A stretch of DNA of 64,000 nt from Whitmania pigra. Lineage: Eukaryota > Annelida > Clitellata > Hirudinida > Haemopidae. How positions within the stretch are numbered: position 1 is the stretch's first letter; each line of letters opens with the position of its first letter. Shown here one piece after another: positions 362-64,000 of this stretch. The notes beneath the pieces are model-generated. The model saw only the letters and a list, made by a program, of their open reading frames with translations, did no database searches and was not told where the DNA came from. The position numbers and the translations under genes were made by a program. The stretch lies in NCBI GenBank assembly GCA_021613335.1, contig JAJTWR010000308.1, positions 2,568,001 through 2,632,000 of the forward strand. Direction: 5' to 3'.

Positions 362-3300
362 TATGATCCTCGTGGATTGCATCAACAGTGTTCCAGCAGA
401 CAAGCTGCTCATCAGGAGGATGCATTGCATCAACAGCCTCGTACACACACAACTTTTCCTCAGTCCTGGTTTGTTGCTTCTTTTAAAACTCACAGAGTTT
501 TTAGACTATTTTTAAATTTATTAAATAAGTAATAAATAAATATTTACTTTTGAATGACAGTATGTTTCAAACTTCTCGAACATGTCGTTCTCCAATTTTG
601 TTAATAAAAGCTCTTCAACTTTTCTAATAGCTCTTTAACTCTTTAAAATTCACTTTTCTAGTTTTTAGGATGGCTTTAAATCAAAATGAACATTTCAGTG
701 AAATTGTTAAAAAATAGTCGAAGCATAACATAACAAAAAGGACAAAATAAAATTATCCATCGACTTAGACATTGCATAAAATGAATGTTGTATTATTGTC
801 GTATTCCTTTTTGCATTTCATGATTCAGAATGCCGAAGAATCCTTCTCCCTGTGATGTTGGACCACGTGTACAACCTCATGTCGAGTCACATCGAGTCTA
901 TGCAGGAACATAACTACAGAGACAGTGATCCAGACACGACCAGGTATATAAATTACATATTCATACTTTAGTTGTATAAATTGCATATTTATACATTAGT
1001 TGTGTAAATTACATATTAACGTAATACATTTTAACATATGACATTCTTTCTTACATTTTAATTATTATGACAATGTTTTCATCATCAGGTACAATGAACT
1101 TGACATTTGCATCAAGATCCTTTCTGATGTCATGGATTACGAGTTTAAAAACACAGGGGTGAGTTTTATGGATGGTATGAATATGAATATAAATGTTTTT
1201 ATATAAACTGAGATAATTAAAACTCTTTTCAAGTACCATATTGTCTTTTTCCATTGCTAATAAATTCAAGAACTAATCCATAATCTTTGTATTTGCAGAC
1301 TGCAACTCCTAATGAAGACATGATGATCATCAGCAACAAGATGCTCAGACTGGTGACAAAAACCGTCATTTACCTCGACAAAGAATCTTCCCTCATTGTG
1401 AGTCAATTTATTTATTTTAAGCTCGAGCGAACAATTGCAAATTAAGCAATAATCAAACGTTTCACAATTGAAATCATTGAATCCTCGATTGAAGGGTAAC
1501 TGTGTGGCTGTGATGACCTCGGTCTTGAGGCAGATGACAGAGTACCAGTACAGTCAGTACATCACCAGGTTCGAGACTCCGTTCGATCTGCTCGATTACT
1601 TAATGGAGATTCTCATGATCTTCGAGGAGTTGATAACCAGGAATGTTTACCCGCCCGATTGGAACGAAATGATCCTCCATCAGAATTGGTCGGTTTTTTG
1701 GAATTTGATTTTCAAAAGAATAACAAATCTTTCATTGCAGGGTTTTTCTGAACACTTTGAAGTATTTCTCAAATACCATCAGGAGTGAATTCACAACCTC
1801 ATTCTGCTGTGATGTGAGTTTCTTAGTTTATTTTGTATATCTTCAATATTCATTTCATATTTATTTATATTTTGTTACTACTGAATCATATTATTTGATT
1901 CTCACAAATATATTTATTTTATGAATTACTTGCTTTTCAGCTGTGGAAAAGGTTCTTCCTGAGTTCCATAGCTTTCATTGTCCAAAAGCCACTGCAATTG
2001 GAAAACTTTTCTCCTGCCAAGAGGAACAAGATAACCTCTCGGTAAATGTTCTCAAATCTTTTCCTTTCTTTTAAATTTCTTCCATTAAAAAATAAAATTA
2101 AATATTGGTATTCCATTTATTATTGCTGTTATTTGAATGAAGACATACCAAGCTTCTTGCCGAACAAAATTAAACTTTAATTTGTCCTACTGTTTGTAAA
2201 TATTTATTTAAATTTCAGTTATCAAGACATGAGGATCGAGGCTGGGTTGGAAATTCGTTCCATGTGGAACAACCTTGGTGAGTTGTAATGTAGCATCAAG
2301 CAACATATATTGTAATATTGGTGAGTTGTAATATAGCATCAAACAACACATGTAATATTGGTGAGTTGTAATGTAGCATCAAACAACATATATTGTAATA
2401 TTGGTGAGTTGTAATATAGCATCAAACAACATATATTGTAATATTGGTGAGTTGTAATGTAGCATCAAACAACATATATTGTAATATTGGTGAGTTGTAA
2501 TATAGCATCAAACAACATATATTGTAATATTGGTGAGTTGTAATATAGCATCAAACAACATATATTGTAATATTGGTGAGTTGTAATATAGCATCAAACA
2601 ACACATGTAATATCGGTGAGTTGTAATGTAGCATCAAACAACATATATTGTAATATTGGTGAGTTGTAATATAGCATCAAACAACATATATTGTAATATT
2701 GGTGAGTTGTAATATAGCATCAAACAACACATGTAATATTGGTGAGTTGTAATATAGCATCAAACAACACATGTAATATTGGTGAGTTGTAGTGTAGCAT
2801 CAAACAACACATGTAATATTGGTGAGTTGTAATGTGGCATCAAACAACACATGTAATATTGGTGAGTTGTAATGTGGCATCAAACAACATATATTGTAAT
2901 ATTGGTGAGTTGTAATATAGCATCAAACAACATATATTGTAATATTGGTGAGTTGTAATATAGCATCAAACAACACATGTAATATTGGTGAGTTGTAGTG
3001 TAGCATCAAACAACATATATTGTAATATTGGTGAGTTGTAATATAGCATCAAACAACACATGTAATATTGGTGAGTTGTAATGTGGCATCAAACAACACA
3101 ACAACACACATAACATGAACTTTATAAAAGAATGGAACAGTTCAATGTATTAGATGATATCTTGTTAGTTATTACAGTGATAACAATGTAATTATGGTTT
3201 AATTTTAATAACACAATTATAATAATTTAATTATGCTGATATATTATAAAACAATTGATTTGTCAAACAGGTCAGCACAAGTTGGAGTTCATTCCAGAAA

Positions 3301-6300
3301 TAGTTGGACCTTTTCTTCAGATGACTCTCATTCCTGAGAGGGGTTAGTTTTATATAATGGTAGTTTTATATAACATCAGTTTTATATAATGGTAGTTTTA
3401 CATAACATCAGTTTTATATAACCTTAGTCATTTGTAGTTAGTTGTCATTTATTTTCACAAGTCAAGCCTTAAGAGTTTAAGCAATGAAACATTAAAATTT
3501 TTCATACATTGGAAGTATTTTTTTATGCAACAACGAACAAAAACAATGAGATGAATAATTAATTAGCAATTCAGAAGAACCATGAAAATAATTATTTAAT
3601 TTTGATTGTCTCTCAAGAGCTGAGGAAGAAGACCATTCCAATATTCTTTGATATGATGCAAGCTGAATTCATGGGGTCAACTGCAAATGTTAGGAGGAAC
3701 TTCATCAAGGTTTCTCAATCATTTATTTCTCAATCATTTGTTTCTCAATCATTTGTTTTTCAATCATTTGCTTCTCAATTATTTGTTTCTCAATCATTTG
3801 CCTCTCGATTATTTCAATTCTTCTCAATCATGTGCAAGTAAAATGTGAGTATGTGTGGGATGTTGCATTTACCATTTCAAAGTTATAGTTCGGTAGTCCA
3901 AGTAGTGCAAGACAAGTGATTATAACAAGAAATAGAAATTGACAAGAATTATAAAACGGGAATGTAATTAAATGAAAGTCATTTGCAAACCCAGTATATC
4001 TTCTTAGACATAATATTGTGTTTACTTGAGTTTCTTTTGTTTATGTTCTTTGAGGATACATTGGGAAATGGTAATAACTAAAAATTAATAAATGGTAATA
4101 ACTCAAAATTAATAAATGGTAATAACTCAAAATTAATAAATGGTAATAACTCAAAATTAATAAATTGTACTAACTAAAAATTAATAAATGGTAATAACTA
4201 AAAATAAATAACTTCTTTCCAGTTTGAGGACGAACTGATCGACCGTATTGATAAATTTGTCAAAGAAGGTCAAGGAGATGAGTCATACAAGGAAATGTTC
4301 TACGAGATGTAAGATATAATATTTATTATTTACACAAGTATTATATTTGTTATAAGGCATAATATTTGATTATATTGTTGTTGTTATTATTATTATTGAT
4401 TGCAATATGAAGAAATTATGAAATGTCTCCAACCTTCCATTTTATTAGCATAAGAGAGAAATGTGAGAGTCACAAGTTCATGAAGGATCAGGGTTTGACC
4501 TTTGTTGACACCATAAAAGACCTGTTCGCTCTGCTGCTTCAGTATCGATCCGTTTTCAGAGAAGACAACCACGACAACAAGATGAGTTGCATAGTCAGCC
4601 TCCTCGTAAGTTTTGGTCGTCACTTTTAGTTCGTCAGTTCCCATAATTGTTCGTATTTAACAATCGTAACACTGTTTATAATCTCTAAGCAGTTGTTCGC
4701 TAAATTGCATTGATTAAGTGTTTCTATAAATCTGCTTGTAATGATCACATGAAGGGAATGTTAAAAAGTACATTTACTTTTATCGTACCATTCTTTTCTC
4801 CACCAGAACTTCTACCGTGACATTCGCAGGGACGAGTTGTACATAAGATGCCTCAACGAACTTTGCGACCTTCATTTGGAGTGCGAAAATTACACAGAAG
4901 CCGGTTACACTCTTATGACCTATGCAAAGATGCTCAGGGTGAAAGTTACTTTTTGACGTGATATTTATTAAGTTCACTTAAACGTTTTATTTATTAAGTT
5001 CACTTAAACGTTTTATTTATTAAGTTCATTTAAACGTTTTATTTGTAAATATTTTAGCAATATATTTAACTATATTCATTACATTCACACATGTATTATG
5101 AATTTCCATCATGTCAATCTGCTGTTCAGTGGACAGATGAGAAGTTGCATCCCATGCTGCTGAGTTCAGCATGTCCCGAGTTGGACACCCACAGGAAGTT
5201 GAAGGAGCACCTGTATTACGAGATCATCTCCTGCTTCGACAAAGGAAAGGTAGGTTGTTATCAATTCCTCCTCATCAAGATTTAAACTTATTTTAAGTTA
5301 GGCAGATTATTATTCATAATGTTTTCTAAAACAAATGCTGAAATGGAATTTGAATGAAATTGAATAAAATAAAATTGAAATGTTAATTTATGTTTGGAAA
5401 GCAATTGCATCAAATAAAATTGAAATGATAATTTCTGTTTGCAGGTGTGGGAGGTAGGCATTGAACTTTGCAAGGAACTTGCACAGCAATGCGAAGTCGA
5501 AACGTTCGATTACATTCAACTCTCTCTCATCCTTGTGAGACTTAATTAATTAATCATTTAGACAGGAATAATTGATAATCGAATCTTAATCAATCAACAT
5601 TTTATAATTAATTAATTAGACTTGGTTAACTAATAATGGCGTCTTATTTTATTATTAATTAAGACTTAATTAATGATTGATTAATATTTGAGTCTTACTT
5701 CATCAACCACTTGCAAATGTTTTAGTAAGAATTTGGATCTAACTCAAGTAGCTGTATTTACACAAATGCAATACAGTGTAATGATATGTACCGTTCATAA
5801 AAGCATAAAAACATATGACAGTTATAATTATGTAATAATATAAGAACATATAACAACAGTTATAATCATGTAACAACGTAGCAGTTCACCTATAGTAGCT
5901 TTTGTCTCTCACACGACGCTCGTTGATGCTGCAGACGAAGCAGGCGGATTTGTACGACTCCATCATGAGGAAGGTCAGACCAGAACCCGAGTACTTCAGG
6001 GTTGGATATTTCGGACTTGGATTTCCTCCGTTTCTCCAGGTAAAATAATAAATTACTATTATTAGTCAAATAAATAATTAATTAATTATTATGATTAATT
6101 AAATATTGATGGGAATAATTTATTATTATTACTCGTCGTTAGGATGATTCTTATATTTGCCTTTTAAACAGAACCGAACTTTTGTGCATAGAGGCAAAGA
6201 ATACGAGAGGTTGTCAGATTTTGTGTCGAGGCTTCTCAACCAGTTCCCCAATGCTCAGGTGGAAGCACTTTTTGATTTCACAAATTCATATTTTATTTGG

Positions 6301-9300
6301 GCTTTTAAATTAGCTTTTAAACATCACTTTAAGCTGCTGAAAACCTTGAACCAACCGGGAGATGACATAAAAGAGAAGTTTGCCCAATGTAATCTCTTAA
6401 ATGTCTCTATGTGCATTTATTTACTCACATGTCTTTGCATTTGATTTTATTATTTTATGTCTTTGCAGAACTCTTTAATTACTCAAGTTGTTAGCATCAT
6501 CATCGTTGTTATTGTTGTCATTGTTGTTGTTGTTGTTGTTATTATTATTATTATTATCATTTATTATTATTAATTTTTTTATAATTAATTTGTGAATAAT
6601 AACAATAATATTTTTCCCTTGTGACCTCGAACTCTGAGAGCCATAATTAGCCAATATTAGTAATAATGAGAGCCATCTTAATTGACCTTATTTTGAAATA
6701 ACCTTCACCAGATCTACAAATCAACAAAGTAACACCAGTAATGGAGTTGAAAGAACATCTCCTTGGTAAAAGACTGAGTGACCAAATTCTCAAGTAAGTA
6801 ATTCAAGTCATTTGCAACAATCTTGTTACATTATTTAATATGTGAATTTTTTTACTGCTTAACATTGTCTACAGATATTTTAAAGTTAACGAGGTTCAGA
6901 AATTCACCTGTTCGCGCAAAAAAGATGAATCCATAAATGAAGTATCTGTGAGTAGTTTCATGTCCTCGGTGCATGATGCTGTTTGAAATAAACGGTTTGC
7001 AATCCTGCTGCAAAGTCCGGGTTGTTTTTCTTAATAAGTGTGGTTTAACGTGCATGATTGCCTTCCATTGAATTTGCACTTAATGGTCCATTATTGCAGT
7101 TCTTAATGGTTTTATTAATTTATGGCAGTCCATGTGGCTCGAAAGGACCATCCTTGTGACGTCATGCTCCCTTCCTGGAATCCTTCATTGGTTTCCTGTC
7201 ATTTCAACCCAAACGGTTTGAAGTCATTTTTACTCATGTTTTATGTCAGATCGTCGTTGATGATGATGATTGATATGATGCAGGTGGACGTGAGTCCTCT
7301 CGAATTGGCCACGGAAACCATCGAAGAGACGAACACGAAGTTGAAATCTCTCGTGGATCAACAGTTGAGTGATCCGACGTCGAGAATCGATCAACTCAGC
7401 ATGGTCATCAATGGAGTTGTCGATGCTGCTGTTAATGGAGGAATTGCCAACTACAAGGTACGTGTAAGGAGCAATAAGGCTGTAAACTCTGATTAAGAAG
7501 TTATTTACATCTTTAAGAAAGCATTTTAATTAACTTATATTTGTGGGCTAATTTTGTTTATAGGAATGGAGGCTTCCTGTTTGAATTAATGTCTTAATGT
7601 TGGCCTAAAGATGTCACATGTATTTGAATTAATATCTAAAAGTTTTTATGCACAAGATGTTTTATGTCTTTGGAGAATTGTCAAATGGTTGCATTTCTTT
7701 CAGGTGTTTTACTCTGAAAAATATCTCAAGGAGCATCCATCTCCCGAAGAGCGGATGTTAATAACTCGACTCAAGCAGTACACAACCTCACAGGTCGTGA
7801 TTCATATCTTTTAATCCTTTTAATCTTTTTTTTTTTAATACATTTATGCATGGTAATCTAACTTCTGATAAGGTAATAGGTCACATAGATTAATAAGTTA
7901 CTGTGTTATGTGTTTTAATGGTTGAAGTGGAAAATGTAAAGTTCCTTTAGGTGATCCTAGCACAAATATGTGTATACTTATTATAGGCATTTATGTATTT
8001 TTACTATATTTGTATGTTTACTTTGTTGGTTACTCGTTATCCTCATTGTTGTGTTGTGTTGTGTGTACTGTGAAGGTGATTTAAACAATGAGCTCATTCT
8101 AATTCAATTCCAGCTAGTCATCCTGAGATTTGCTCTCAACATCCATCAGAAGAGGGCACCAGAAAACCTTCAAGCTTTCCACTCACACATGGAGCAGAGG
8201 TACACAGAGATGAAGAAGACATTGGAAAAAGACTACGGCATAAAAGTTTGCCTGGTTAAAATTACTTTTAAGGCTCAATATTGTGATTCATAACCATTCA
8301 TAATTAATCTTCTTTTGATTAGTGAATTAAGTTATGGCAAAACAAAAATTTGCAGTTGAAAGATGATGATGCGTCGTACGAGGATTCGGATTATGTTTCT
8401 TCGGTTCAGTTTGCAAGAACTTCCTTGCATGAGCACGATAGCCTCAACAAGTAAATCGTTCTTTTTTTTCATTGTAACGGCTTATTATTATTATCTTTAT
8501 TATTATAAAAAATATTAATATGTAGGAGGAAATAAATCTTTATCATTTCAATAAATTATATTTCTGCATGTCAACAATTGTTTCCTCGTTGCCAGGCAAC
8601 TGTCAAGTTCAAGGTTAAACATCCCTCTGAGGGTTCATGGAAGCAGCAACTCTTCCAGATCAGAGTTTGTTATTTTCAACAATTTTGTTTTGAAACATAT
8701 CTCTGTGATGACATTGCAACTTTTATTTGCCAGATTTATTAGACAGTATTATTGGATCACAATAACTTATTATTATTATTGTTAATGCTTTTGATGTTGT
8801 TGTTAATACTGTTATAATTACTATTGCAGGTAGTATTATTGTTGTTAATACTATTATTATTAATGTTGTTAATGCAGGTATTATTATTGTTGTTAATCCT
8901 GCTGAGCCAAAACAGAATTTATAAGCCTTTTATTCAAGGCATTCTCCATCATCTTCGAGTCTGTCGATCGAACTCCGAACAAAAGGAAAAGCTTCAGGTT
9001 CGAGGACTTCCTTTGGTTCGACCTCCTTGGACTTCCTGGGCCAAAGACAAAGTGCTTCACCCAGAGTCTCTGGTTCATCTCTCATCAAAGGCATCGATCT
9101 TCAGAACTTCCTCTCAGAAGTGAATCCCAAGAAATAAGTTTTAGTTAACATCTCAGTTAATGTGTCAATAAGTCAATGCACGTGTTAAATTTTTCAGCAG
9201 GTATCACCGTTGAGGTCGAACAAGGGCGACAGTGGAACGCTGAAGGTTCAGCAGAGACAAACCACGGCCATGAGTCCCACCCTCGAGGATCCGCCCCCCC

Positions 9301-25269: not shown

Positions 25270-28200
25270 TTATGACAGACAAAATTTCAGATCAACCAAC
25301 TTTACAATAGGCTTGAAATTTGGTAATACCTGACTACTTTGAGCCACCATAGTATATGGTTGAGTCAAACTGTCAAATCTGACATCTTGATTTGGATGGT
25401 TAACTTCAAAATGTTGTTTCATGTCACTTGATGTAAAGGAAGCAAAGAGACAATGTTTACATTTTATGGGGTGAAGTGTTGTATGGGTGGTAACATGGGC
25501 TGTGAACTCTTCATCTTGAGTGGTTTGGAATAAACAGAATCCACACTTATGGTGCTTTGAGCCAGCTTCATCAGGAAACACTTCAAGTAAGGGAAATGTA
25601 ACCTTTTTTGAATAATGAATCTGAAGATGTATTCCAAAGTCTTCCAAAGCAGAGAATTTGAGCGGACATTGGTCGCAGCAAAATGTTGTAGGTTGCTCCA
25701 CATTTTTCACACGTCCGATCGAGTATGTACTTTTGTGCATAGCAGTGTTGAAATGAGAATTTTTTAGATGACTCTGCAGCAGATGTCTACAATGTAATAA
25801 AATAATATACTGAGCATAAATGTTGAAAAGAACTCAATACCTACATTGATGGAAATCCTTGATTGCAATAGCAACAAACCAACTTCTTCAAACATCTTGC
25901 CTTTAGAACTGGCCTCACTGAAAGAAAATTCATTAAATCACTATTGCGAACGTTATCGAGATTAGAAATGACAAAAATTGCAATTACTGTTTCTAACTAA
26001 TTTTGAAACTCTTCTTTTGAGAGATTTAAACCATTCACTTTTGACTTTTTTAGGATTCGCAGGTAAGAGGCAGTTTCTTACATAACATTTTCTCATGTGC
26101 CTTCTGAGCAGAAATAAGTTTTTATTAGCGTAACAACAAAAGCAACACTTAAGTCTGAACTTGTCATGAACACTTCTGTGAGAAATTAAGGCTTTTATAC
26201 TTGATGTTTCATATTGGCACTTTGAACATTTATGTAACTTCCCTCTGTAGTGCAATGATGAAATCAAAACGTTTTGCAAATTTGAAATACGAATTATGGG
26301 AATGTTCCCAGTTTTTTCAGGAGCTTTGTCAATTTTATTTGTATCATTTTTCACCATGCATTTTTGCAGATAATCAAATATTTGTAGCTCCTTTTTTGCA
26401 TTGACAGAATGTTTAATTGAAATAGTCATCCCAGGATGTTTGATCCTAAAATGCTTTCCCATCTTAGACTTGCATGGCTCTTCATATTGGCAGTAGGCAC
26501 AAGAAAAAGGTTTGTATTTCAACTCTCTCATAAGATGGTGTTTCATATCAGTCCTAATTGGTGTGACAAGAGAACAGAAACAACATTTGTAATAGATCCT
26601 CTGGTTGGCTGCAAAGTGTTGCTCATCTTTAATTATAGGAGAGACTTGTGAGGCAGTTTCAATGCCTGTGATATTTCCATCCGGATCAAGGGAAACTTTC
26701 TCGAATGAATTTCTCACTTGCTTTTCCATCTGCTCGTCTCTTTTGCAAATGAAACGTATTTCCTTGTCAGGATGTTTCAACTGAATGTGTTTTGTTATGG
26801 GAGAACTCTTGACAGAACAAACAAGATTACAATAAGGACATTGGTAAGGATGATACAACAGATGAGACATGATGTGATGTCGAATAACTGTTGCCTTGTC
26901 GGAATTGTAACTACAGAGTTTGCATTTGTATAAATATTCGAGCCCAGGCTTTGAATGTGAGCTTCTTTCAGGTGAGAAATCTAAAAAAACATACAAGATG
27001 TTGAGTTTCATGAATGGCAATCAATTCAATAAAAACTCACCTAATGGAGGTGAAATATTTGGAGAATCAACTTTCTCTTGGTCAGCTTTGTCCAATTCAT
27101 ATGCTCTAGGAGATTCAGTGAATCTATTCAAGTCCTCGGTTTGAATTCTTGCAGTAAGAGGAGCGATTTGTTTGTGCTTTATTGGTTTGGTTGGATGCCT
27201 GATGAGGCAGTGACTCTGCACTCTGCTAACCAGATTATTCTGATAATCACAGTAAAAACAGGCAAACACCTTGTGAACTCTTGAATGCGCTCCCAACGAA
27301 GCTTCACTTTCAGCAACATAACTACAATGATTGCAAGTCAACAAAGCTTTTGATTGGGATTTAGTTGATGTTTCCATTTCTGATTTGATTCTCAAAGAAC
27401 TTTTCCTGCCTGCTGCAAGTGAGTTTCTCTGTGTGGAATTTTTGTTTGACTGGAAGCCACTAATTTTTCTAATATTTTTTTGTAGGAAGAGGGCGTGGAT
27501 GTCGTACGACCTGCAGACGTATGCATCGGAACCAGGATGAAATTCTTCAATGTGATTTTCTACACATCCTTTTCCTCCCATGTATTGATGGCATTTCGAA
27601 CAGCTGTATAGTCCTATTTTAAGGTGCTTTTTAACGACATGGTACTTTGCTTTGTCGTGGCGAGGATCCTGATAACCACAAATCCTGCAGTGATAAATCG
27701 ATGAATACTTTTTGCTAGGAGTCTGCCTAATTCTATGGACGTTAGTTAATTTCTGCATGTACTTGTTGACTAATGACACTTTCTCTTTAGCGTTTTCTAT
27801 GTAGCACATATCTTCGTCCGGGTGATTACAGCGCATATGATTTTCCATGCTCTGCTTTTGCCAGTATTGAGCCTTACAATATTTACAGCTGTAAGGTTTG
27901 AGTTTCATGTGTTGACACATGACATGTCTTTTCATCATAACCTCACTGAACATCTGCAACCCACAAAACATACATTTCCATTCTTTTGAATTATCCACAT
28001 TATCTGGATAAATTTCTTCATCAACATCCTGACTGAAACCTTCATTTGCAGTTATCTTGTCAACAGAAGGGACAATTTCATCATCCTTGTCTAAATTTCC
28101 AGCTAAAGTCATGTCATTTTTGTTCTTTTTAACATTTAGTTTTAAGTATGATCCCAATTCTTCTAAGCTTAGAATCGGTGCCCCATTCTTTTTTACATAA

Positions 28201-31058
28201 GCAACGGTGATAACACCATCGCCATCTCTCAATGGTACGACAGAATTGAATAAAGCCAATTCATCCTTTATAATAATGGGCTTGCCAGGGTGAACTTTAG
28301 AACAATGATTCATCACCATTTGACTAGATTTTCTGCTTCCATAATCACAATAACTGCAAGTGTAGACTTTTTTCTGTAAGTGAACATGGAGGATATGAAG
28401 ACTTATGTCCCTTCTGTTCCATTTTGAAACTACATCACAATAAGCACATTTAAACAACTTCTTCGTGGTTACTCCATCTCCAGAGAATGACTGGACTGGG
28501 GAATCTCCTGAAAGAAACGTCTCCTCAGAAACCGACCTCTGGTATTCACATCGAGGTGGCGAATCCAAATTCCCGTCTCCTTCTTTTCCGCTTGCCTGAA
28601 AAATAAAATGCAATTTAAAAGATTAAATCCACAATCAATCAAAGCAAAGGTAGCCCTCACCTCTTGTGAGGTAGATTTATCTTTGGGAGTCTGCACCAAG
28701 TCCTCATACAAATGCTGTCTCATGTGCCTGATCAAATTGATTCTAACCCTATTTGCATAGTTGCAATTAGGGCATTTCACAGGCTCTGCAAATATCATGC
28801 CCCTAGGCAGAAAAGAATCAAAATATTCATTTGCGACTCTGTTACCTTCTTTTTTTGAAGAATTCTCTATCTTCTCAAATTGATTATTGTTTTTAACAAA
28901 CTCTGATTCTGTAATGTCAATCTCTTCACAGTTTGTAATTTTAACAACTTTTATAGGCAGCCTTTCATGATATTTCCCAAGGTGGAATTTTATGCAATTT
29001 ATTCTGTCATGCTTAAACATACAATAGCCGCATTTAAAACAATTTTCAAGGCTCTTGGCTCGTTCGTGTATGGCAGAGTGACGCTTGAAATTTAGAGATT
29101 TGTTGCACTGAAAAGGACACAATTTACACACAAATAGCATGGAGTTTTCCTTTTTTAATGCGGGTACAGCACTTGCATTTTCTTCTGCATCAAAAGCTTC
29201 ATAGTGGCTTTTTACGTGATCATTATAAACATTATAATTTGAATTCTTAAAATTGCATTTTATGCATTTAAATACATATTCCTCTGAAGTCACTTTGTTT
29301 GACTGGTTATCATCCGACATGCTTGACAAAGTAACAGGCAAGGTAATTTCCAGTTTATCTGTCAAAAATTGTTTTGGTAGAATGAGACTATTTTTTGAGA
29401 CATCTGAATTGCATTGAAGCATTAAATACTCAGCCAATGCTTTCAAATTGTGCTTGGTTGATAAATGATTGCAGAATCGAGACTTCCACTTAAAGGTTCC
29501 TTTACAAAGAGGACACAAAACCATATCTTGAAGATAACCTATGTTCTCTTGTCCTGCTTCAAACTTAAATGATGCCAAAGGATGCTGTTCAAGTAAATGG
29601 CTTTCTATGATGTCAATGCAGTTTGATTCTTTAGGACAGTAAGGACATGAGTAACACCTTAAAAATCTGGCATTGGTATGGAATGATAAGTGATTAATTA
29701 TTGTGTCTTTGTCATTTGTACTAAACTTACAGAAATTGCAAGAAAAATCTTTTGTAATATCTACATTTTCCAAATGTCCTTCTTTAATATGAATGTTTAA
29801 CAGATTATCATTGATGCAAGTGTAGGTGCAGTCACGACATTGATAGGGCAACGGTTTCGTGAGTGGTGATATAATAAGGCCATCGCAGCACGGAGCAATA
29901 TTGGTAATGTTATGCTTTGCACTTAGGCATTCATTTCGGAAATTTTTCTTTTTTAACCGTCTTTCGTGGTTTATCACTTCGACATGAAGATTAAGTTTTC
30001 TTAAAAATCCAGCATGGGATGCATTTATGTGCTTTATAACCTCTTCTCGCGAGTTAAAGATCAAGAGACAGTAGGCACATCTTAAAGTTCGCTTCAAATG
30101 ACTTCGGATATGTTTCATCATGTCTTCCTTAGAACAAGATTCACAAAAACAAAACGAGCAAGGTATCAGCTTGCAGTCTTTGTGACCGGAGTAAAGATGC
30201 TCTCTCAAATTTTCCAATCTTGGAAAAGGCATTGAACAATCGTTGACTTTGCACTCGAAAATGATTTTGTGTTGGTCATAATGGTACTTGCAAATATGCT
30301 CCAGCAATGAGTCATCGCAAACAAATCTCTCGCTGCATAGAGTGCAAAGAAATAAATCTTCACCCGCGTGTTTCAGCATGTAATGAATTTTCAATGCACT
30401 CAGGGATACCGAAGTGAAATCACAAACTTCCCCGCATCGATATGGCACCAGCAAATTATTTATACCACGTACCGAAAGCGAACTTTCGCCGAATCCGCGA
30501 AAATTGCAGGAGAGTTTCTTAGTGGCGCGTTCGTAAACTCGGCATCGTGTCGCAGCCGAACAACTCGTATCTGTCGCATTAAAATGTATATAATTCTAAA
30601 TAAGGTACATTGGACACCGAAATACAAACTTTAAAACATTACTCACCATCAATTTCTTTATGTAAGTCTTTAAAAATTGGTGCATTCCCTCTCGCTGGGG
30701 TAGAATCCCCCAATGATGTAATATGTTCTGAGCTATTGCTGCATTGCGTTGCGACTTCAGAATTTTCTCGAAAGGCGCAGTCGTTAATTTCACTATTCTC
30801 AGTATCGTTCCCAACAATACTACTCGAAGGTGATTTATTTTCAGATAAATCATCGTCTTTTTTGTCACTACAGACTGGTTCTTGTTTTCTAGCATCAACT
30901 TCTTCCAGTAGTTTTAAATCAGAATCAGAAATTTCTTCGGCTACATCTTCGCCACCATACTCTGATGACGAACGATCCTTTTGGCTCTGATCTGGATCGA
31001 AGCAACAGAGTGCATCGTCCTTGTGAGGAATTTCTTCATTTTCTATCGCTTCCAACAT
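25270..31058 (-). CDS. Poly-C2H2 zinc-finger protein, about 1819 residues
   Basis: Exons in transcript order are 30647-31058, 28661-30570, 27041-28595, 25988-26980, 25845-25917 and 25270-25786; they sum to 5460 bases, exactly 1820 codons. Each junction has GT-AG sites and restores the frame. Exon 1 is acidic and disordered (MLEAIENEEIPHKDD start). Exon 2 has about 13 C2H2 fingers, exon 3 about 8, exon 4 about 6 and exons 5-6 about 4. Most follow Cx2C-x12-Hx3-4H, with a few degenerate ones such as HHLMREL in place of the second histidine. One finger is split by the intron between exons 5 and 6 (CCYCNQGFPSI then HLLQSHLKNSH). Recurrent aromatic spacers of the yxCxyC kind recall REST, ZNF462 and Hunchback, but I cannot name an orthologue. 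Likely a nuclear DNA-binding regulator. The start is the first ATG in frame. Confidence 0.88.
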
Positions 31059-59736: not shown

Positions 59737-62700
59737 TTAAAAATGTTCAACAGCATCCATGTCTTTATCTTCATCTTCCTTGTTGTCCTTCTTGAGGAGA
59801 TTTGAAGCAACAATAACCATCCACAGCAGCAGCCCCAAGTTCCTGTTAGAACGGAACTTTCGTCCACAATCTTCCCCATCTTTCAGGTTCACTGACCATA
59901 TCTGAATGTGGTATGAAAACTCAATTAAGCCCCACTACGCACCATTTGAAGATCCCAATCATTCTTCACAAACCACAAAATTCTTACATAATGTTATATC
60001 ACGCTTAATATTTTTCATGTTCCATCAAGATTGAATTCAATGATTAAATTGCAAAATAAATCAACAAATTATTATTAAGTTAATTTAGTTATAAGTTTCA
60101 AATAACCTGATGGGCCAAGTGAGCAGCAAAAGCAGTTACCCCTCCAAAATAAAGCAATGTTTGGTCACAGAGGAACCCAGTGGCCAAGAGTCCCCCTGTT
60201 GTGCAAGCACCAAAGCCTGCTAACCAGTACTTGGTGTTTTCACCAAATTTAATGGCTGTGGACTTCACACCGATTCTCAAGTCATCATCTATGTCCTATT
60301 AGAAACATTGTTTTGTTATAGTTAACTAGATAAATACATCATTTATATTAATTATACCAAACAAATGTTCAGTTGTGACACAAAGGCATAACACCATTAT
60401 TTCAACAACAATTTAAATAGAAGTTTGAATTTAAAAAATAATAATTTTGAAAAATTATATAACTTCTGAGTTTTTTATACCTAATAGGGCATTTAGTGTC
60501 CAGTTATCTCATTAATTCACTAATTCAATAAAATTTGAATTTAAATTCAAGTTTCTTTATAATACATAACAATAACTTTTGCATTTAATGCCTTAACAAT
60601 AACAGGTCTCATTTGATGATTTTTTCTCTTATTTTTAATGGGCAATTCCAAATGCTGCTTGTGAGCAATAACATAGAATATAATAGCATAGGTATTTTTA
60701 TATATACATAATATATACATGCATAAAATATATAAGTAGTAAAAGTAAATATACAAGAGGTGCTACAGCAACATGCACAATTATAGATACATGTGTATGA
60801 TGCGCACGGGAAGACTCACTTGAAATGCATACACAGTGTCATAGAGTAAGGTCCACGTTATAGAAGACAAGTAGAGAGAAGCAACAACCCAGTCAAGAGA
60901 GTTGCAGACAGCACTCCATCCCATGACAACTCCCCAGTTAAAAGTAAGACCTAGCAACAAAATTTAATTCATAGCTTAATACAAACTCAACTGAAAGGAT
61001 TTAAGATTACACAAAACATCGGTAAAGAAGAGCAGAAGCTACTGCAAAGATGACAAATCAGAACTACTTGCTCAAAGCAGCATTTAAAATAATTTTCTGT
61101 GGTGGTTTCTTGTGAATGGTTGCCAATTTGATTTCACTAATTAGTTTTAGTATTGGAAGTGCCTATCAATTTATTTACACGATGACACTCCAATGGCTGC
61201 GTTGATGGCTCCCATTACGGAAAAATGTCACAATTGTTATCTTATTATCCAGTTATAATACCAAAATGTGCCAAAGTAATTCCACTATTACAGTTACAAA
61301 AAAATAAAATTAATCAAGTAAATTCACAGTAAAGTCCTCCTACATGATACAAAAACACCAATAAAAGTGGGAAACCTAAACAAGCCCTCTGACCTGATAA
61401 GAATAAATGGTGTCATAGGTCATAGTCCAAAAAATGCCAGATGCGAATAGAGACAAGGTTGGCCATGACAGAGCACCATGAGTTTCTGACCATGCTATAA
61501 GTATTCCCCATCCCTGGGTTATCCCTAGCAACAAGGCAGAGAATAGACTTAGCCTAATGAAAATATTGTGAATTTTGTCTATATAGCAATGTCAACCAAA
61601 TAAAACTACTGCAAAAGAAAGTTCATAAAAACTCATTTCTCAATTGAAGAATTTCTATGAAAATGCACTCCACCTACAAATATAAAGATTGAGTTCCAAA
61701 CTGAATAAGCATTATAAATATAAAAAGCCCACCTACTACTTTGAAATGTCATCCGACCATTTCTACCTAAACCCAGTAGCTTCAGCTCTTACTTCATAAG
61801 AAGATATCATTAAAAAATCATTACCTAAAAATGCTTGTGGCCAATATGTAAATCTTTTAGCCAAAGGATAAGCAATGCATGGGCCAAGTGAGCAGACTCC
61901 CAATAAAATCCTGAATGTCACACATAATAAATGTTACACCATAGAAATCCTGGCTGACGATAAATGTGATATCGATTACAATTTCATAATAAATTCTCTG
62001 ATAATTAGTACATCTGATCAAAGCATTGCATCAAAGAAGGTATGGAAAATGTAACACGTACGTGTTCCAATTGAAGGTAAGAAGGATGGATAGAGATAGG
62101 GAGAGGGGCAGGGAGAGGAAACAAAGTGCTTTGAATCTTGTTACTTCACCACATGCCAGTGGTCTGTTTCTTGTTCGAGCAACCTGCACAAGAAAGTAAT
62201 CCTGTCCATTTCTCGTTAAATTAATTTATCCTAGACTTAGGTGTGCTAGGTAATGTGCATGCTAGTTGTTCTATTGTTATTGTATGCTCAATTACATTAC
62301 GTCATATTTAGGTTGTTTCAGCAAAGTGATTGATAACACTATAAAAATTCAATCCATCTCACGTAGCGTCATAAGCGTAAGCATCAGGGGTGCTCAACCA
62401 TTTATATAGCACTCCAAGGGACGCTTTGTGGCGGTGCAAGCTGGTTCGCAAACACGACACGTGACGACTGTTGCTTTTACCGCCGTTTTGCAGGCACGCT
62501 ACCCTCTGAGACAGCTTGTTATTGTATGGTCAATTACACTATGTCATATTTAAGAGAAATAAACAGATTTTTTCGACATTTGTTAAGGTTGTTATCATCA
62601 TCAATTATTGACAATACTATGGCAAAGAAGAAAATAATTCTTACCTTAGCATCAAAGTCTTTGTCCCACATATCATTAATGACACAACCTGCACCCCTCA

Positions 62701-63288
62701 TAAGAAAAGATCCCATGCCAAACAAAAGGAGGATCTTAGGATCAGGAAGTTGTCCGGAAGGTGTGGCTAAGCTAATGCTCCATGCACATGGAAGAAAAAC
62801 TAGCCATGACCCTGAATTTTAAGTTTATTGAGCTGTTTATTAATTCCTAAACTTCAATATGACAAGGATGAGTATCAGAATTTTAAATTACCTATCGGTC
62901 TATCCATTCTCATCAACTTGAGATACGGTTTCATAGCATCGGGGCATGCATTGACAATCTTCACTGAAAGAGATTCAGGCGGAGTTTCAGGAACTATAAA
63001 TTGTGATGAGCGTTTTATCGAGTCATGATGAAGATTCTCTTTGGATAGACTATTTGTCTTAAAGACAACTTGACTTTGGTTATGTTTGGAATTATTCAAC
63101 AGAGTCGATGTAGTTGTAAAATAGCGACGCCAGCCCTGGATGGATAAAGGACCAGCATAATTTAAGGAATACTTATGGAGGAATTTCGGTTGGACTGAAA
63201 GATTTAGGAATTTGTGAGAATGCTTAGGAGGACACAATATGTGTTTAACATGCTGGACAAAAAACATATGTCTTTCCAAAATGCTCAT
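59737..63288 (-). CDS. COQ2: Mitochondrial 4-hydroxybenzoate polyprenyltransferase (COQ2)
   Basis: COQ2 attaches the polyprenyl tail to the quinone ring precursor in the inner mitochondrial membrane. Exons in transcript order are 62892-63288, 62645-62811, 62062-62183, 61825-61910, then either 61394-61524 or 60820-60950, then 60107-60295 and 59737-59901. With one alternative exon the coding length is 1257 bases (418 residues). Residues 1 to about 65 are basic and Ser/Thr-rich, a mitochondrial presequence. The first prenyl-binding motif is NDMWDKDFD, followed by NRPL; the second is DIDDD in the exon after the alternative pair. [30 protein letters not shown] and [19 protein letters not shown] are strong family matches, and membrane segments are spread through the protein. 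An acceptor just upstream of the ATG (near 63298) suggests a 5' UTR intron. Confidence 0.95.
60820..60950 (-). CDS. COQ2: COQ2 alternative exon, canonical version
   Basis: 131 bases, acceptor TTGCTAG and donor CAA|GTGAGT. It encodes [15 protein letters not shown], then [19 protein letters not shown], which matches the vertebrate-type COQ2 segment (LTFNWG, GWSA, WTLIYDTIYAHQ) better than the upstream version. Same length and same phases as 61394-61524. Probably the ubiquinone-type exon. Confidence 0.88.
61394..61524 (-). CDS. COQ2: COQ2 alternative exon, diverged version
   Basis: 131 bases, own acceptor (TTGCTAG) and donor (CAG|GTCAGA). It encodes 44 residues including the split first codon: [17 protein letters not shown], then [20 protein letters not shown]. 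It agrees with the other version at 19 of 44 positions without gaps. The usual FNWG motif of COQ2 reads QGWG here. By analogy with C. elegans coq-2 this would be the rhodoquinone-type exon; that is inference. Confidence 0.88.
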
Positions 63289-64000
63289 TTTTCATACCTA
63301 AGATTAAAAAAAAGCATTAGATTAGTTTATTTTAAATACAAAAAAACTATAATTATAAACAACACATATCTACACAAGTTAATAAGACAAGCAATTCCAG
63401 GTTAACTGTTGATGAGTCTTAATTCATGTCCAGTACCGACTCAAAAACTACATTATCTGTTGTTAAAACCATAATATGGTTTTAGCTTACAATTTTGAAT
63501 CAATTTTTCGACTTCGGTTTACATCCCAGTACTTTGAATATCAACATTAAGCAATTAGCCCCTCCTTTCTTCAAAGTCAAAGACAGAAATACCCCATAAT
63601 CTACCGTCACATACCGAACTGTCACTCGGGGGGCAACTAAGGTTAATTATGACTAATTGTTCAAAATTAGGATATTTTCATCAGAAAATGTTGTAAAATA
63701 CTATTTCAAATAAATAGTGGCAAATCGAGAAAATACAAACCTTCTAAAAAAATTTCCTCAAAACATGTCAGATTACAATCAACCCGCAAAAACACAAACC
63801 CTAAATTTGTGCAAATACTGACATAACGCTCATAGACCACTTAAGACGCATGTGCAACTTTCATAAATATGACATTTGCTTAAAATTAATTTTAAATTCT
63901 TATTTAAAAATTTGTATTTTAATGTTTAAATTAGAAAACTATTTCTATGTGATCAGCCACTTATTTCTTTACGAAAAAACTTTTCTGGACACCGCACGAC
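63289..64000. other. COQ2 upstream region
   Basis: Holds the probable 5' UTR intron acceptor next to the COQ2 start and presumably its promoter. I see no TATA box that I would defend and no further gene to the window end. Confidence 0.4.

Follow-up and report, generated by a model that had tools for sequence, protein, structure and literature searches.

A complete COQ2 gene with two alternative exons in the leech Whitmania pigra and glutamine at a published rhodoquinone-marker position

In Caenorhabditis elegans, the gene coq-2 contains two mutually exclusive exons of 134 nt, 6a and 6e, in which residues 204 and 243 of the protein are located (PMC7434440, where the figure legend names 6e ahead of 6a). 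The published description of exons of the rhodoquinone (RQ) type features two changes, namely Phe204 to Leu, with Leu being invariant, and Ala243 to Ser. When C. elegans COQ-2a was given both F204L and A243S, survival under RQ need was restored, indicating that these two columns matter for substrate choice. The pair Leu204/Ser243 has been used to recognize RQ-using animals from their genomes (PMC10136121), and COQ-2e has been proposed as an anthelmintic target. Here and below, comparisons with published systems refer to the available portions of the cited papers.

Within the annelids, adjacent a- and e-type exons of COQ2 were described for Alvinella, Lamellibrachia, Paraescarpia, and Dimorphilus (PMC12403961), and such exons were also reported for Capitella (PMC7434440). 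According to the former study, the annelid A/S residue is the third from the C-terminal end of the exon and follows no clear pattern, the F/L residue being more diagnostic. In cnidarian COQ2, residue 204 is represented by F, L, M, or I and in none of 16 cases by Gln; the residue pairs L;A, M;A, and I;A occur, and Nematostella features L;S (PMC10136121). RQ is also contained in mice, and an e-like exon was reported as not found in mouse or human. Annelids are counted among the phyla containing RQ, and both RQ and the a/e exon pair in annelids are already published, the arrangement treated here thus being of a known kind. To our knowledge, none of the first four annelid genera listed above is a clitellate. 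No work on a leech COQ2 exon pair or on RQ in leeches or sponges was named in the literature titles and abstract openings covered, a scope outside which most subscription papers fall.

The window, i.e., the whole stretch of 64,000 nucleotides of the W. pigra assembly that was analyzed, encodes a complete COQ2 gene on the minus strand (59737-63288), whose exons are compiled in Table 1. All internal exon borders follow the GT-AG pattern, and the deduced protein comprises 418 residues with either of the alternative exons, 5e or 5a. Both isoforms scored above the cut-off of TIGR01474 (4-hydroxybenzoate prenyltransferase family; 362.8 bits for the 5a isoform and 351.2 bits for the 5e isoform, cut-off 275.45) and of PF01040 (UbiA; 205.9 and 203.6, cut-off 34.2), in agreement with the identification of the gene as COQ2 in an earlier, sequence-only reading of this stretch. 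A stretch resembling a 3' splice site (T run followed by AG; 63289-63345, minus strand) ends nine bases ahead of the start codon and suggests a putative untranslated first exon upstream of COQ2. An Rfam scan of the 64-kb window at gathering scores yielded 0 matches.

Table 1. Exons of the COQ2 gene of W. pigra; positions refer to the window.
Feature	Position	Strand	Remarks
COQ2 exon 1, with start codon	62892..63288	-	GT donor, phase 1
COQ2 exon 2, holding NDMWDKDFD	62645..62811	-	PF01040 match
COQ2 exon 3	62062..62183	-	PF01040 match
COQ2 exon 4, ending in WPQAFLG	61825..61910	-	Window sequence
Alternative exon 5e, diverged, e-type-like, GITQGWG...IAWSE...YDTIYSYQ	61394..61524	-	Gln at Phe204 column, Ser at Ala243 column
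Alternative exon 5a, canonical, GLTFNWG...GWSA...YDTVYAFQ	60820..60950	-	Window sequence
COQ2 exon 6	60107..60295	-	PF01040 match
COQ2 exon 7, with stop codon	59737..59901	-	Window sequence

The two adjacent exons, previously noted as homologous and equal in length and phase, were confirmed at the positions given in Table 1. Exons 5e and 5a are each 131 nt long, lie between AG and GT, and are entered after base one of a split Gly codon; their protein sequences align without gaps and are identical at 19 of 44 residues (43%). At the DNA level, 63 of 131 positions are identical and 68 differ, the differences being distributed over codon positions 1, 2, and 3 as 21/44, 18/44, and 29/44, respectively. 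The BLOSUM62 score of the aligned pair was 126, as compared to a mean of -35 (s.d. 15.6, maximum 38) for 20000 shuffled versions of 5e. When 5a was diverged in silico without selection to the same DNA identity (63/131 nt), 19 identical residues were reached in none of the 20000 simulations (maximum 17), and a stop codon was gained in 18246 of them. Judged by these sequence comparisons, the similarity between 5e and 5a does not originate from unselected divergence, and coding has been conserved in both exons.

Inclusion of 5e and 5a together shifts the frame and leads to a stop 30 codons past 5e, while skipping of both leads to stops 2 codons beyond the junction. Since the frame is broken with both exons as well as with neither, they are necessarily alternatives if both are used; this rule follows from the frame and not from transcripts. 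A third convincing exon copy was not found in the window by tblastn with 5e and 5a. The assembly of 178 Mb was queried with 5e joined to a portion of exon 6, in a search that scores the best candidates only; the four matches returned were 5e, 5a, exon 6, and a bacterial-type UbiA gene on another contig (C81), and the COQ2 locus, residing on a contig of 3.6 Mb, appears to be single in the assembly. Ungapped matches between the introns flanking the two exons do not exceed 10-12 nt. The protein identity of 43%, the third positions differing in 29 of 44 codons, and the nearly unalike introns suggest that the duplication is old.

Within the introns near the pair, the final 10 bases ahead of 5a (60951-60960) and ahead of 5e (61525-61534) are identical on the minus strand (TTGTTGCTAG). 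The hexamer TGCATG, which we take to be an RBFOX-type motif, is located at 60772-60777 and 60718-60723 (minus strand), 43 and 97 nt into the intron following exon 5a. These two occurrences in the intron after 5a compare with 0.17 expected (Poisson p 0.013, uncorrected for motif choice). As a weak lead, an RBFOX-type factor could favor inclusion of 5a via these sites.

Compared to coq-2 6a/6e of C. elegans and other helminths (PMC7434440), the locus of W. pigra features the same enzyme, the same slot by counting, equal-length exons of 3n+2 nt, and Ser243 in the e-like exon. It differs in exon length (131 vs. 134 nt) and in residue 204 (Gln vs. Leu), and the pair is known here from sequence alone; the C. 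elegans exon is longer by one codon, which is located between the 204 and 243 columns. Residue counting and the position of the Ser show that the slot of 5e/5a coincides with that of the published COQ-2a/COQ-2e exons. In 5e, the Phe204 column, corresponding to exon residue 4, is occupied by Gln, followed by Gly replacing Asn, so that the published F204L change is absent. The Ala243 column holds Ser (YSYQ, as opposed to YAFQ in 5a), i.e., A243S is present, and this Ser is the third residue from the C-terminal end of 5e.

The annelid a/e exons (PMC12403961, PMC7434440) share with the W. pigra locus the phylum, the adjacency of the pair, and the A/S column third from the end. By comparison with their published description, the first and most diagnostic residue differs in 5e, being Gln (PMC12403961). 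Since F204L, the change regarded as more diagnostic in the Alvinella study (PMC12403961), is missing, the marker found in 5e is the weaker one. In cnidarian COQ2 (PMC10136121), partial matches to the RQ residue pair occur alongside the L;S of Nematostella, as compared to Gln;Ser in 5e. Gln at position 204 is absent from the accessible published description of COQ-2e, from the table of 16 cnidarians, and from 12 aligned bacterial UbiA sequences. Applied strictly, the published residue test excludes 5e from the standard COQ-2e exons. The sequence-only reading had interpreted the pair as the hallmark of a ubiquinone/RQ switch, which agrees with the published slot and with A243S, but not with the absence of F204L (Gln instead). 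It had quoted QGWG for the diverged exon, but made no mention of the departure from the published Leu204.

In the alignment of bacterial UbiA proteins, Phe and Ala occupy the two columns in 12 of 12 rows, and 5e departs from them at both. These rows represent 11 of the 12 loci of one UbiA search plus the bacterial-type locus L002 from the W. pigra assembly. L020 and L003-L008 have no row, owing to a length and motif filter or to the lack of a hit. L001 was excluded from the UbiA count with 26.8% identity, was read as a relative of heme O synthase, and contains neither the Phe-Asn-Trp nor the Tyr-Ala-His-Gln motif. Aligned with exon 5a, the archaeal UbiA of 4od4/4od5 features Leu and Ser at the two RQ-marker columns, and its crystal structure has been described as containing 4-hydroxybenzoate (4HB). 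The residue pair by itself thus does not define an enzyme for 3-hydroxyanthranilate (3HA).

Kynureninase is needed to make 3HA. In the assembly, it was identified as a multi-exon gene on one contig (C330), where all seven matches are located and extend, albeit with gaps, from position 1 to position 398 of the 400 in the model. For one piece of the gene, three of three solved-structure matches are kynureninases, and two of three pieces match TIGR01814 only. None of the exons attains the family cut-off on its own, and matches to this model occur in 9 of 14 control genomes as well, in 2 of them above the cut-off. The presence of kynureninase supports the predicted capability for RQ production.

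Further residues considered in connection with RQ-dependent metabolism are Phe437 of ETFDH (Cys in mammals), Pro133 of TDO, and Gly71 of SDHC (MEV-1). The animal-type ETFDH reads RPSF, as compared to RPSC in the pig protein (2gmh), i.e., Phe vs. Cys in a column that was equated with residue 437 by way of this F/C difference. All three bacterial-type ETFDH copies in the assembly (L030-L032) also feature Phe (RPSF), while the match L033 contains no such motif, and Phe was reported for 16 of 16 cnidarians (PMC10136121). The mammalian Cys therefore looks derived, and Phe, a state that does not discriminate, lends no support to RQ. A search of the assembly for SDHC (PF01127) gave 0 matches from 3 candidates, with 7 of 14 control genomes matching, and short exons may escape such a search. 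For alternative oxidase, the assembly and all 14 control genomes gave no match, and the result is hence uninformative.

Intronless bacterial-type genes for UbiA, ETFDH, and COX2 were observed on assembly contigs (L001-L008, L030-L032, L038, and L039). When COX2 was used to look for a mitochondrial contig in the assembly, two of 36 candidates matched, and the contigs carrying them were read as bacterial. These bacterial-type contigs indicate that the assembly probably includes symbiont or gut bacteria. Elsewhere in the window, exons of a DOCK-family gene are located at 1453-7496 (plus strand; PF23554 above and PF20421 slightly under the cut-off), and extended open reading frames encoding numerous C2H2-like zinc fingers were found at 25270-30595 (minus strand). 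For the latter, one PF13894 match (27.3 vs. a cut-off of 27) was obtained, ZNF462-type and PF00096 matches being below the cut-off.

A large cathepsin L-like family became apparent in the assembly from 73 matches to a silicatein probe, which form clusters on several contigs, C365, C120, and C220 among them. Silicatein carries Ser at the site where cathepsins have the Cys of GSCWAF. This cathepsin-type site was present in 11 of the 11 loci inspected among the 12 returned (L040-L051, with L049 left out; ten by motif scan and L050 by eye), instead of the silicatein Ser. The Antennapedia homeodomain had 66 matches in the assembly, including 11 full-length ones of 81-92% identity, which are dispersed over several contigs and include two identical copies. 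In L053, the homeodomain is followed by KLTGP, presumably the Lox5 signature of spiralians, and copies that we likewise take to be Ubd-A-like and Post2-like were among the Hox matches. These Hox genes point to a bilaterian, sponges not being known to possess any, and a sponge origin, to which the bacterial-type contigs had seemed to point, was rejected on this ground. Their dispersal fits a leech, as Hox genes are duplicated and dispersed in leeches.

Regarding the function of the pair, we lean towards the explanation that 5e represents an RQ-type COQ2e exon with an unusual substrate-pocket residue, which we consider probable, albeit not by far. According to this explanation, one of the tandem-duplicated exons would be chosen per transcript, giving rise to two COQ2 isoforms of 418 residues. 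The 5a isoform would prenylate 4HB for ubiquinone synthesis, and the 5e isoform, its aromatic pocket being remodeled by the exchanges of Phe204 for Gln, of the neighboring Asn for Gly, and of Ala243 for Ser, would prenylate 3HA of the kynurenine pathway, leading to RQ and, under low oxygen, to fumarate reduction. On this view, the Gln found at position 204 would represent a variation on the Leu described in the literature.

The main rival is that 5e descends from an ancestral RQ-type exon, the specificity of which has drifted or been lost, so that an exon still expressed and constrained would yield little RQ or act on another aromatic ring. We regard this as possible, but clearly less likely. 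The Gln in place of the published invariant Leu would fit such a history, clitellate annelids have been described as fast evolving, and siboglinids were reported to retain e-type exons, with key enzymes of the kynurenine pathway undetected there (PMC12403961); the intact and constrained state of 5e, the retained Ser243, and the presence of kynureninase argue in the opposite direction. At a similarly tentative level, the substrate choice of 5e may be unlike that of any described COQ-2e, with Gln-Gly and Ser243 forming a polar pocket that offers a new contact to the 3HA amino group or accommodates a third ring. In that case, the Leu204 rule could not serve as a definition of RQ synthesis in animals.

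That 5e goes back to a duplication which took place in this slot independently and in this lineage alone, unrelated to RQ, appears rather improbable. Mutually exclusive exons of mrp-1 were reported to have arisen separately in several lineages, the authors leaving the case of coq-2 open, and the absence of F204L in 5e would also be in line with this origin; however, the identity of 43%, the 29 differing third positions among 44, and the unlike introns point to an old duplication, and common descent is the simpler explanation as the pair is already present in other annelids (PMC12403961). That 5e is a dead copy or results from faulty assembly is very hard to reconcile with the open frame, both splice sites, conservation above the neutral level (0/20000), and the single locus within a 3.6 Mb contig, and 68 differences in 131 nt argue against a duplicated or misjoined recent repeat.

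Given the favored explanation of 5e as an RQ-type exon and the alternatives to it, an animal that possesses the exon pair, yet features Gln204, represents a natural test of the Leu204/Ser243 marker. Either the marker rule may be too strict, or this lineage may have altered the role of its second COQ2 isoform.
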